Source: Roseovarius sp. SCSIO 43702
GTDB taxonomy: Bacteria > Pseudomonadota > Alphaproteobacteria > Rhodobacterales > Rhodobacteraceae
Reading direction: 5' to 3'
Assembly: GCF_019599045.1 (NCBI RefSeq)
Contig: NZ_CP080623.1
Span: 1 to 20,000, forward strand
DNA: 20,000 nucleotides
Positions 16,392-20,000 of the stretch are shown one piece after another. Made by a program: the position numbers and the translations under genes. Position 1 is the first letter of the stretch, and every line of letters begins with the position of its first letter. The notes under the pieces are model-generated. The model worked only from the letters and a program-made list of their open reading frames with translations. It did no database searches and had not been told where the DNA came from.

Positions 16392-16468
<77 letters not shown>

Positions 16469-16549: not shown

Positions 16550-16664
16550 GTTTGGCAGCGACCTACTCTCCCACGTCTTGAGACGCAGTACCATCGGCGC
16601 TAAGGCACTTAACGACCGGGTTCGGGATGGGACCGGGTGTTTTGCTCTTGCTATGACCACCAAA
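16550..16664 (-). rRNA. rrf: 5S ribosomal RNA
   Basis: About 115 nt, recognised by conserved text: the sense strand begins TTTGGTGGTCATAGC, contains ACCCGGTCCCATCCCGAAC, and ends GGGAGAGTAGGTCGCTGCCAAA, with 5' and 3' ends complementary. Ends are placed to within a few bases. Confidence 0.95.
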
Positions 16665-16783
16665 CCGAGAAAGACCTCTGAATTCCAAGTCAGCACACAA
16701 GGTGTGTATGCTTCCGATCAGTTTCAGCACGCTCGCCTGTGCCACGTTGGCACATGCGAAGTCTGGCTTCTACTGGATCAAAT
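16665..16783 (-). other. 23S to 5S internal spacer
   Basis: About 119 bases with three foldable parts: the 5S-flanking arm (16671-16681), CACAC/GTGTG around 16694-16706, and a perfect 7-bp hairpin TGTGCCA/TGGCACA (16738-16754). These are ordinary rRNA-precursor processing structures. Confidence 0.6.
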
Positions 16784-17204
16784 CAAGCCTATCGGACAAT
16801 TAGTACCGGTCAACTGAACGCATTGCTGCGCTTACATCTCCGGCCTATCGACGTGGTGGTCTACCACGGTCCTCAGGGATACCTTGTTTTGAGGGGGGCT
16901 TCCCGCTTAGATGCCTTCAGCGGTTATCCTTTCCGATCATAGCTACCCAGCACTGCCGTTGGCACGACAACTGGTCCACCAGTGGATCGTTCACCCCGGT
17001 CCTCTCGTACTAGGGGCAACTCCTCTCAAGTATCCTACACCCACGGCAGATAGGGACCGAACTGTCTCACGACGTTCTAAACCCAGCTCACGTACCTCTT
17101 TAAACGGCGAACAGCCGTACCCTTGGGACCTGCTCCAGCCCCAGGATGAGATGAGCCGACATCGAGGTGCCAAACACTGCCGTCGATATGGACTCTTGGG
17201 CAGT

Positions 17205-17258
<54 letters not shown>

Positions 17259-17395
17259 TCGGGACCACCGGATCACTATGGCCGTCTTTCGACTCTGCTC
17301 GACTTGTCAGTCTCGCAGTCAGGCTGGCTTCTGCCATTGCACTCAACGAGCGATTTCCGACCGCTCTGAGCCAACCTTCGCGCGCCTCCGTTACC

Positions 17396-17431
<36 letters not shown>

Positions 17432-17686
17432 ACGCAGGGTCCCGGATCCGGATAACGGACCGCGGTTAGACTTCAAGCAAAACAAGAGTGGTATCTCAAG
17501 GGCGGCTCCACAGAGACTGGCGTCCCTGCTTCAAAGCCTACCACCTATCCTGCACAAGTTGTGCCTGAAGCCAGTGCGAAGCTGTAGTAAAGGTGCACGG
17601 GGTCTTTCCGTCTAACCGCGGGAAGCCTGCATCTTGACAGGCAATTCAATTTCGCTGAGTCGATGTTGGAGACAGCGGGGAAGTCG

Positions 17687-17769
<83 letters not shown>

Positions 17770-18503
17770 TGGGCTTCAATTCAGAGCTCTCACCCCTCCT
17801 TTTAACCTTCAGGCACCGGGCAGGCGTCAGACCCTATACGTCGTCTTGCGACTTCGCAGAGCCCTGTGTTTTTAGTAAACAGTCGCCACCCCCTGGTTTG
17901 TGCCCCCAGCCAATACTTGCGTAGAAACTGGGCCTCCTTCTCGCGAACTTACGGAGGTATTTTGCCGAGTTCCTTCAACATCGTTCTCTCAAGCGCCTTG
18001 GTATTCTCTACCAGTCCACCTGTGTCGGTTTAGGGTACGATCTCATGATGGAGCTATTTCCAGGGACTGATTAACGGCCAACCCAATCCAATAAGGGCTG
18101 ACAATCTTCACAATCCGTCACTTCCATCTGGCCCAGGAATATTAACCTGGTTCCCATCGACTACGCCTTTCGGCCTCGCCTTAGGGGTCGGCTTACCCTG
18201 CTCAGATTAGCTTTAAGCAGGAACCCTTGGACTTTCGGCGACAGTGTCTCTCACACTGTTTGTCGCTACTCATGTCATCATTCTCACTAGTGATCTCTCC
18301 ACCGGATGGCTCACGCCCCGGCTTCATCGAAAGCCTCTCTCCTCCAATGCAGGCGAACCCGCTAAGGAGGAACGAGACTATGTCACACTACGCTCTGCTA
18401 CCAGTGCATACGCACTCCTCGGCTTCGGCTCATGGCTTGAGCCCCGTTACATCTTCGCCGCAGGACAACTTGTTTAGACCAGTGAGCTGTTACGCTATCT
18501 TTA

Positions 18504-18534
<31 letters not shown>

Positions 18535-19036
18535 TTGTTTTGGTCGTCCCACCTGCTTTCCCACTTAGCCATGAATTGGGGGCCTTAGCCGGAGGTCAGG
18601 GTTGTTTCCCTCTCCACTACGGACGTTAGCATCCGCAGTGTGTCTGCCATCTAGTACTTCTCGGTATTCGGAGTTTGGTTAGGATCAGTAAGCCTGTGGG
18701 GCCCCATTACCCATCCAGTGCTCTACCCCCGAGGGTATTCGGATGACGCTCTACCTAAATAGATTTCGCAGAGAACCAGCTATCTCCGAGTTTGATTGGC
18801 CTTTCACCCCTAGGCACAGCTCATCCCGATCCTTTTCAACGGATGTGGGTTCGGTCCTCCATTGAGTGTTACCTCAACTTCAACCTGGCCATGCCTAGAT
18901 CACTCGGTTTCGGGTCTGATCCATCTAACTCATTCGCCCTATTAAGACTCGCTTTCGCTGCGCCTACACCTAACGGCTTAAGCTTGCTAGATAGACCAAG
19001 TCGATGACCCATTATACAAAAGGTACGCCGTCACAA

Positions 19037-19057
19037 GACTGGACACTAATAACAATC
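19037..19057 (+). repeat. IVS terminal inverted repeat, 3' arm in rRNA sense
   Basis: This 21-bp arm begins GACTGGAC and ends GACAATC-like (AACAATC). Reverse-complemented, it matches 19635-19655 at 19 of 21 positions: one mismatch is A/T and the other would be a G-U pair in RNA. The stop codon of the internal ORF (19058-19056) overlaps its inner end by two bases. Confidence 0.92.
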
Positions 19058-19592
19058 ACTTGGTTGGGATCGACACCCGAAACTGCACGGTCTCGAGGCC
19101 CGGGTTGCTGCTGTAGATCCCCGCGTTCGAGCGGTGATCCACCGACAGGCCCATGCGGATCCCGCTTCGGTTGGTGTAACCGACCTCGATACCCGATCTG
19201 AACTGGATCGGTCCGCCCAGCCCGACATCGCCGCCCTTCGAGTAAAGTCCGGGCATCGCGTGGAATTGTGCGTACCACCGTTCATTCGGTGTCGTGTATG
19301 TCGTTGTATTGCCGAGCCCGATCCAGAACCCGCCGTCTTCGGTGATCGAAGCGCCGTAGGTGAACTGAAAAGGCCCGCGTGCCATCGAGGTCTGCCGCCG
19401 CAGGTAAATCTCTTCACCTATGGTGCCATCCTGGAAGACAACATCGCCGATCGAGGCCGCGAAATACGGCTGACGCTCGTTCTTCGCGAGGCACCCTTCG
19501 TTCGGACAGTGGTTCACGCCCATGTTGATGAGCCCGAGAACCAATCCGATAACGGCAAAGGTGCCATCCGTGGCGATTGCAATATCAGACAT
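19056..19592 (-). CDS. PagL-like lipid A 3-O-deacylase within 23S rRNA IVS
   Basis: A 178-aa intact ORF resembling acyloxyacyl hydrolases of the PagL family, outer-membrane barrels that remove the 3-O acyl chain of lipid A. The catalytic signature is visible near the C-terminus: H153 and S155 in DHRSNAG, then E167 in NPGLETVQ. The spacing (2 and 12) equals that of H126, S128 and E140 in Pseudomonas PagL. The alternating pattern from about 43 to the end (FQFTYGASI, FWIGLG, GIEVGYT, GIRMGLSVD, QFRVSIP) fits beta strands. Residues 12-27 are hydrophobic, but the N-terminus is acidic with no basic n-region, so export is uncertain; C29 and C34 follow. GGGAG lies 9 nt before the ATG, with an in-frame TAG 30 bases before the start codon. 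Codon use is host-like (GC-rich third positions), so the frame is probably under selection. Translation would have to occur on the rRNA precursor or the excised IVS. Confidence 0.8.
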   Translation of the reverse strand: MSDIAIATDGTFAVIGLVLGLINMGVNHCPNEGCLAKNERQPYFAASIGDVVFQDGTIGEEIYLRRQTSMARGPFQFTYGASITEDGGFWIGLGNTTTYTTPNERWYAQFHAMPGLYSKGGDVGLGGPIQFRSGIEVGYTNRSGIRMGLSVDHRSNAGIYSSNPGLETVQFRVSIPTK

Positions 19593-19601
19593 TCGATCAT
19601 G

Positions 19602-19624
19602 CTCCCGTTCAGGTCCTCCGACCT
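19602..19624 (-). promoter_or_regulatory. Ribosome site and small hairpin before the IVS ORF
   Basis: In the rRNA sense, AGGTC-GGAG-GACCT forms a 5-bp hairpin (19624-19611) with GGAG in the loop, followed by the likely ribosome site GGGAG (19606-19602), 9 nt before the ATG. The hairpin lies between the IVS closing stem and the start codon and could affect ribosome loading; that is inferred. Confidence 0.5.
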
Positions 19625-19634
19625 AAATGAAGCA

Positions 19635-19655
19635 GATTGTCATTAGAGTCCAGTC
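19635..19655 (-). repeat. IVS terminal inverted repeat, 5' arm in rRNA sense
   Basis: The partner of 19037-19057, reading GATTGTCATTAGAGTCCAG and two further bases on the plus strand. It lies directly against the helix-25 flank AAGCTCCGACTG. Confidence 0.92.
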
Positions 19656-20000
19656 AAGCTCCGACTGATTGTAGGCGTCCGGTTTCAGGTACTGTTTCAC
19701 TCCCCTCGTCGGGGTGCTTTTCACCTTTCCCTCACGGTACTGGTTCGCTATCGGTCAGTAAGGAGTACTTAGCCTTCGAAGGTGGTCCTCCGATCTTCAG
19801 ACAGGATTTCACGTGTCCCGCCCTACTTAATACGTCCAATCATGCTTCATATACGGGGCTGTCACCCTCTATGGCCGCGCTTCCCAACGCGTTCTATTCA
19901 CAATCATGGCTCGGCTGGTCCCCGTTCGCTCGCCGCTACTAGGGAAGTATCAATTGATGTCCTTTCCTCCGGGTACTTAGATGTTTCAGTTCTCCGGGTT

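Follow-up and report, generated by a model that had tools for sequence, protein, structure and literature searches.

The 23S rRNA gene of Roseovarius sp. SCSIO 43702 is interrupted at helix 25 by a 619-nt insert that is probably an intervening sequence (IVS) of the RNase III type, housing a working gene for a PagL-type lipid A deacylase together with a promoter-like element of that gene's own. The insert was found in a 20,000-nt stretch of the genome (hereafter, the window), with the coordinates of its features being listed in Table 1. The arrangement is widespread, is under selection and is interchangeable with a version of the gene that lies outside the 23S rRNA gene (hereafter, a free copy, as distinct from an inserted copy). 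A broader reading, for and against which we see equal weight, is that one stretch of sequence is doubly coding, serving as the upstream half of a promoter in DNA and as one strand of an RNase III stem in RNA, and that the 23S rRNA gene is an interchangeable address, with many moves in and out across the family, for a functional gene that often has no second copy of its kind.

IVSs are usually held to be silent or selfish. Here, a conserved enzyme gene resides in an IVS, with no further close copy outside the 23S rRNA gene in the genomes of the genus that were searched. Moreover, annotation pipelines usually drop ORFs that overlap rRNA and, if so, genes inside rRNA may be systematically missed.

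Table 1. Features of the insert and its surroundings, in window coordinates.
Feature	Position	Strand	Basis
tRNA gene after the 5S rRNA gene (context)	16395..16468	minus	Rfam
5S rRNA gene (context)	16550..16664	minus	Rfam
23S rRNA gene	16779..20000, runs on past the window end	minus	Rfam RF02541
619-nt insert in place of the helix 25 tip	19037..19655	minus	Sequence and comparison with free-copy relatives
3′ arm of the terminal stem, GATTGTTATTAGTGTCCAGTC (rRNA strand)	19037..19057	minus	Sequence; covaries with the 5′ arm
178-residue PagL-type ORF, the TGA of which shares 2 nt with the 3′ arm	19056..19592	minus	ORF list, Pfam, comparison
Glu167 codon, aligned with the PagL catalytic Glu	19092..19094	minus	Alignment to 2erv; conservation
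Ser155 codon, aligned with the PagL catalytic Ser	19128..19130	minus	Alignment to 2erv; conservation
His153 codon, aligned with the PagL catalytic His	19134..19136	minus	Alignment to 2erv; conservation
Shine-Dalgarno-like GGGAG, 9 nt upstream of the ATG	19602..19606	minus	Sequence
Promoter-like element CTGGAC-N18-CAT, also present before many free copies	19627..19653	minus	Exact match located; comparison
5′ arm of the terminal stem, GACTGGACTCTAATGACAATC (rRNA strand)	19635..19655	minus	Sequence; compared over 45 inserts

The insert and its site in the 23S rRNA gene

The 3.61-Mb, single-contig genome contains one 23S rRNA match in all, namely, the interrupted gene. When read on the rRNA strand, GGAGCTT and TTGTGACGG border the insert, with 619 nt between the two, and the junctions are ...CAGTCGGAGCTT followed by GACTGGACTCTAATGACAATC and, at the far end, GATTGTTATTAGTGTCCAGTC followed by TTGTGACGGCG.... 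In relatives with free copies, the uninterrupted site is an 11-nt tip in 20/20 readable loci, as in the example GGAGC-TTCCTTGCGAA-GTGACGG. As this tip is found at the same place, the insertion site corresponds to helix 25, a known IVS site according to the excerpted text of PMC4990558. For 31 of the 37 free loci described below, the corresponding genomes were checked for 23S rRNA genes, and 16 gave a match; helix 25 was empty in all 16 readable genomes, with two further 23S copies being unreadable. Within the genus, a 23S match was obtained for ten of the 35 genomes that lack the protein, and the five of these with a readable helix 25 presented a tip of 0-17 nt. At one locus (L115, genome G059), helix 25 seemingly lacks even a short tip, with GGAGC being directly joined to GTGACGG. 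A preliminary description of the window had proposed an ORF-bearing insert of 619 bp that breaks the 23S rRNA gene at helix 25. Both proposals hold, the former given the coordinates of the insert and its recurrence in dozens of genomes, and the latter given the tip and the empty sites seen in the uninterrupted 23S rRNA genes of relatives.

Folding of the insert together with its flanks yielded -296 kcal/mol (z -5.4, relative to a reference of only 20 shuffles). A scan of the window returned no intron family at Rfam gathering scores and the ORF contains no endonuclease domain, such that an intron or homing element was rejected. A shortened Rfam alignment had also raised the suspicion of a second oddity at the 5′ end of the 23S rRNA gene. 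This was not supported: A motif at the 5′ end of 23S lies 537-589 nt from the insert in 12/12 insert-bearing loci examined and 549-621 nt from the helix 25 anchor in eight of nine empty-site loci, with the motif not being found in the ninth.

Distribution of the insert

Among 59 other genomes of the genus that were searched, 24 encode the protein, 22 at the same 23S site and two (G028 and G046) as free copies. Of the 22 inserts, 21 were placed by applying the rRNA model to the fetched locus and one (G035) by adjacency to 23S sequence; G009 and G035 are partial protein matches beside masked stretches. Among named genomes, the best 80 of 99 loci comprised 43 at this 23S site (42 with both flanks matched and one partly masked) and 37 free loci. 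In all 43, the ORF is found on the rRNA strand. Insert-bearing named genera include Roseovarius, Salipiger, Roseivivax, Marinovum, Thalassococcus, and Aquicoccus. When 394 genomes of the family, drawn from 393 genera, were considered, an arm at no more than three mismatches was detected in 17, as compared to none with a reversed-pattern control, and the ORF adjoined the arm in 17/17, as judged by coordinates rather than by 23S locus-by-locus placement. The value of 17/394 is a lower bound, with rRNA being masked or unassembled in places. No arms without the gene were seen in these 394 genomes at the same threshold, while a PagL-type match at an E-value of 0.001 was obtained in 101/394, many of these being distant.

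Of 28 insert-bearing genomes, 25 contain one 23S rRNA gene, two contain two and one contains three. In the genus draw, insert-bearing genomes contain as many protein matches as 23S copies and none extra; in the family draw, genome G277 contains an additional distant PagL match (24% identity). One scan of viral contigs for a viral source gave 36 pattern matches, none of which was confirmed. As masked runs occur in many loci, unreadable 23S rRNA genes were left out of the empty-site counts. Two loci that are further operons of genomes already included (L099 and L105) were left out of the tree, arm and element counts, whereas L061, with a partly masked insert, was kept for the tree and omitted from the arm counts. 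The set used for comparing arms and insert heads thus comprised 45 inserts, namely, the 42 readable inserts less L099 and L105, four inserts from the same genus and the insert of the window.

Several loci merit separate mention. L078 lies on a contig titled Enemella evansiae (Actinomycetota), yet the 23S sequence is more than 91% identical to the flanks in the window and the insert is present. This locus, with its alphaproteobacterial-like 23S sequence, probably reflects assembly contamination and stays in the counts. In Phaeobacter sp. J2-8, which contains three 23S copies, the proteins encoded by L096 and L098 are identical, yet the 3′ tails differ (729 nt in L096 and 687 nt in L098), with L099 being of the same length as L098. 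As such, the portion past the stop codon seems to undergo rapid turnover. Finally, a hairpin of the pattern gCCTCAAGTAGC-GCGGTAGGc is found in the 3′ tail of eight longer inserts (L035, L039, L041, L042, L057, L079, L084, and L085) and also 3′ of the 23S end in L088 (678-705), possibly as a repeat characteristic of rRNA operons in Roseobacteraceae.

The insert encodes a PagL-type protein

The window ORF matched the Pfam PagL family (PF09411) with an E-value of 2.9e-14 and a score of 53.8 bits, relative to a cut-off of 23. PagL is the only domain found in the ORF, no NCBIfam match was obtained, and the same Pfam family was matched by 54/54 members scanned (E 0.01). A profile built from 17 relatives detected 2erv, which we take to be PagL of Pseudomonas aeruginosa, among PDB sequences with an E-value of 0.003, aligning the motif H-x-S-N-A-G ... 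N-x-G-x-E. Assuming the residue identities and numbering that we attribute to the Pseudomonas PagL catalytic triad, the alignment to 2erv reveals His, Ser, and Glu at PagL spacing in the window ORF. An AlphaFold2 model based on 54 sequences (mean pLDDT 90.8) comprises an N-terminal helix (residues 11-28) and a beta barrel. When this predicted model was used in a Foldseek search, the best two matches were both chains of 2erv (E 1e-7 and 1.6e-6; TM-score 0.60 by query), with 21% identity over the structural alignment. Hence, the earlier suggestion of an envelope-enzyme gene on the rRNA strand finds support in both Pfam and the predicted fold, which point to a PagL-type protein. Given the fold and the catalytic residues, the protein would be a barrel of the outer-membrane kind and a lipid A deacylase.

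As read from the sequence and the model, nothing basic precedes the N-terminal helix and the N-terminus is unlike a standard signal peptide, such that export to the outer membrane is putative. The family can be described as a PagL subfamily with an invariant Cys pair (residues 29 and 34) and a helix where the usual signal peptide would be expected.

A Shine-Dalgarno-like match of at least 4 nt precedes the start codon in 38/45 inserts, as compared to 32% of shuffles, while the stop codon overlaps the 3′ arm in 18/45. In the inserts compared, the start codon lies 26-82 nt past the 5′ arm, as assigned by a script that did not reach a start codon in four of the 45 inserts and misplaced one stop codon.

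Pairing and covariation of the arms of the insert

In the window, each arm is 21 nt long, with 20/21 positions being paired, including one G.U pair, and one U.U mismatch, as read from the sequence. This agrees with the 21-bp terminal inverted repeat noted at the outset. A repeat finder gave no report of the terminal repeat, presumably because of its two interruptions.

The 45 inserts compared comprise 39 distinct arm pairs. Across these, stem pairs 1-8 are invariant, while pair 9 is unpaired in 39/39 and U.U in 38/39. At pairs 9-21, 442/507 cells are paired; 2000 re-pairings averaged 425 paired cells and never exceeded 432. Two-sided changes were seen at pair 12 (A-U to U-A in five) and at pair 17 (C-G to U-A in three), with pair 12 being unpaired in nine of the 39. 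The compensatory changes support, short of proof, the formation of an RNA helix by the arms, bearing in mind that re-pairing keeps relatedness in. The U.U mismatch at pair 9, flanked by invariant pairs, is possibly the mark of a cutting site.

A promoter-like element is shared by inserted and free copies

The pattern TGGAC-(16-19 nt)-CAT was found no more than 130 nt upstream of 18/38 free copies, and the spacer is exactly 18 nt in all 18. By comparison, the pattern was found in 112/15187 random windows of the same loci and in 69/11400 shuffles (0.6-0.7%). Positions that the pattern did not specify are also kept, with C preceding TGGAC in 18/18, T occupying element position 19 in 15/18 and G occupying position 20 in 16/18. 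With a relaxed pattern, the element was detected before 23/38 free copies; even so, it is absent before the other 15. In the inserts, CTGGAC sits within the 5′ arm. At insert positions 29-30, C and A reach 1.57 and 1.28 bits, with no other column of positions 26-45 exceeding 0.52 bits. Among 43 distinct insert heads, the strict TGGAC-N18-CAT is present in 24 and TGGAC-N18-CA in 36. Because the CA lies outside the stem and because the element is also present where there is no stem, a role in DNA, most simply that of a promoter, is suggested. The best reading of this comparison is, therefore, that of a promoter-like element that is the gene's own.

A scan of the Roseovarius sp. SCSIO 43702 genome allowing up to two mismatches gave seven matches, as compared to three for a reversed control, with only that of the insert being exact. 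A set of other genes preceded by the element was not found in this genome upon inspection of the best of the six further matches (one mismatch), which lies inside a 714-residue ORF. The conserved TTG at -35 in RpoH logos (PMC3441632, as excerpted) has no consistent counterpart in the free-copy element, which reads CTGGAC, making an RpoH-type promoter unlikely.

The presence of the element before many free copies speaks against simple coupling of the gene to the rRNA promoters; rather, transcription of the gene may be independent. Still, expression could proceed solely via the rRNA transcript, with short-lived RNA freed by RNase III acting as mRNA and the enzyme being tied to ribosome synthesis and rrn dosage. 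This would fit with the ORF being on the rRNA strand in 43/43 inserted loci, with a start 26-82 nt past the 5′ arm, such that the Shine-Dalgarno sequence and the start codon would survive stem cutting, and with every 23S rRNA gene bearing the insert in the three multi-operon genomes (2/2, 3/3, and 2/2). It is at odds with the conserved CA(T) beyond the stem and with the element upstream of many free copies, which suggest separate transcription, as well as with the half-life of 3.9 min given for excised IVS RNA in Coxiella in the excerpted part of PMC4990558. On balance, we regard expression solely from rRNA transcripts as possible, albeit with the weight of the evidence leaning the other way.

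The gene has occupied different addresses

Some free copies are found close to the 3′ end of an rRNA operon, with a 5S match being detected within the fetched locus in 8/38 free copies and tRNA-Met in two more. A tree of 92 proteins calls for at least 12 changes of the inserted label, at least five of which are forced by starred branches. In AU tests, placement of the inserted copies as one clade was rejected (p 1e-46), as was placement of the free copies as one clade (p 3e-4). The tree and the AU test thus rule out a single insertion with no later moves. As the basal forks are low in SH-aLRT support, the tree gives no direction for the first move.

These address changes, together with the near-identical arms that surround ORFs with as little as 48% identity to that of the window, would be in line with a mobile cassette that ends in the arms and that is moved by some enzyme or by recombination of rRNA genes between species. 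However, with PagL being the only domain found in the window ORF, no known mobility enzyme is brought along, no free copy with both arms was seen in the upstream sequences (the search having addressed the upstream side), and the identity of the arms may stem from the dual constraint of stem and promoter rather than from recent spread. A mobile cassette is accordingly considered rather unlikely.

The ORF is under purifying selection

Among inserted pairs that are not identical, the 25 closest gave dN/dS values from 0.029 to 0.122, with third codon positions taking most of the changes (for example, 6, 4, and 51 changes at codon positions one, two and three, respectively, between L018 and L020). 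For the window ORF and its closest relative, dN/dS is 0.115 (dS 0.82). Across 288 inserted pairs with dS of 0.2-1.5, distances at which the method is crude, the median dN/dS is 0.26 (5-95%: 0.08-0.49), while 240 free pairs gave a median of 0.32 (0.12-0.49), above that of the inserted pairs and well below 1. No internal stop codons occur in 50/50 inserted ORFs. His153, Ser155, and Glu167 are invariant in 50/50 inserted and 38/38 free copies, and both N-terminal Cys residues are kept in all readable copies (49 inserted and 38 free), with the caveat that shared ancestry raises such counts. Such a combination of purifying selection, intact ORFs and an invariant triad would hardly be expected of an untranslated ORF, and so we infer that the ORF is translated.

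The same data bear on the possibility that the insert is a selfish IVS with an unexpressed passenger ORF, as has been suggested in Coxiella for the ORF encoding S23p. The site and architecture of the insert are those of classic IVSs, and its distribution is patchy and polyphyletic, as would be expected of such an entity. Nevertheless, dN/dS is far below 1 in close pairs, the reading frame and the active site are retained throughout, and relatives outside the rRNA are similarly constrained. A dead passenger ORF is thus ruled out, and a selfish IVS as a whole is highly improbable. As to an assembly chimera or pseudogene debris, no point in support was found, the same structure recurs at this site in dozens of further genomes, some of them in few- or single-contig assemblies, and no 23S copy other than the insert-bearing one was detected in the genome, so that chance and a one-off chimera are excluded and the chance of debris is negligible.

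Proposed course of processing, expression and movement

Returning to an RNase III-type IVS that carries a working PagL-type gene, the following course of events can be envisaged. The arms would pair with each other within the pre-23S transcript, forming a helix atop helix 25. RNase III would cut this helix, leaving the 23S rRNA in two pieces yet functional. The ORF, with its Shine-Dalgarno sequence inside the loop, would be translated, as selection suggests, into a protein comprising an N-terminal helix and an outer-membrane-type beta barrel that, judging from its fold and catalytic residues, would remove one acyl chain from lipid A. At the DNA level, the 5′ arm would double as the -35-like half of the promoter-like element of the gene. 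A transcript begun at this element would lack the 5′ arm, would escape cutting at the terminal stem and could be regulated as in relatives with free genes, while translation from rrn-derived RNA may contribute as well. Over evolution, the gene would have moved repeatedly between helix 25 and other locations, some near 5S rRNA.

This scheme raises the questions of whether pre-rRNA can give rise to a protein from its interior, of whether rRNA synthesis would be disturbed by an active internal promoter and of why an envelope enzyme should be retained in an rrn operon.

Comparison with known systems

No report of a PagL-type envelope-enzyme gene in a 23S IVS was found in the openly licensed literature searched, in agreement with the preliminary description, which knew of no envelope enzyme in this position. 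Relative to RNase III-excised 23S IVSs (helices 9, 25, and 45), the insert is alike in terms of its site, its terminal inverted repeat and a stem able to serve RNase III, yet differs in containing a conserved enzyme gene under purifying selection. The IVSs of Coxiella, Leptospira, Brucella, and Xanthomonas that encode S23p likewise carry an ORF on the rRNA strand (PMC4990558, as excerpted). S23p is a four-helix protein and, according to the same excerpt, the Coxiella ORF is said to be in decay, with its Shine-Dalgarno sequence being removed upon excision. The present insert does not encode the four-helix protein, given that Pfam detects only PagL and that the model is a beta barrel; instead, its product is a predicted PagL-type barrel that is under selection, with the Shine-Dalgarno sequence kept inside the loop.

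In the excerpted text on rRNA inserts of CPR bacteria (PMC11270868), homing endonucleases account for most ORFs with known domains. Group I introns and homing-endonuclease inserts resemble the insert described here in being protein-coding inserts in rRNA, whereas the latter matches no intron family at Rfam gathering scores and contains no endonuclease domain. Finally, the encoded protein shares with P. aeruginosa PagL (2erv) the same predicted fold, the C-terminal motif and the His/Ser/Glu spacing, and differs from it in presenting an N-terminal helix and two invariant Cys residues, and in being encoded by a gene that lies within rRNA.
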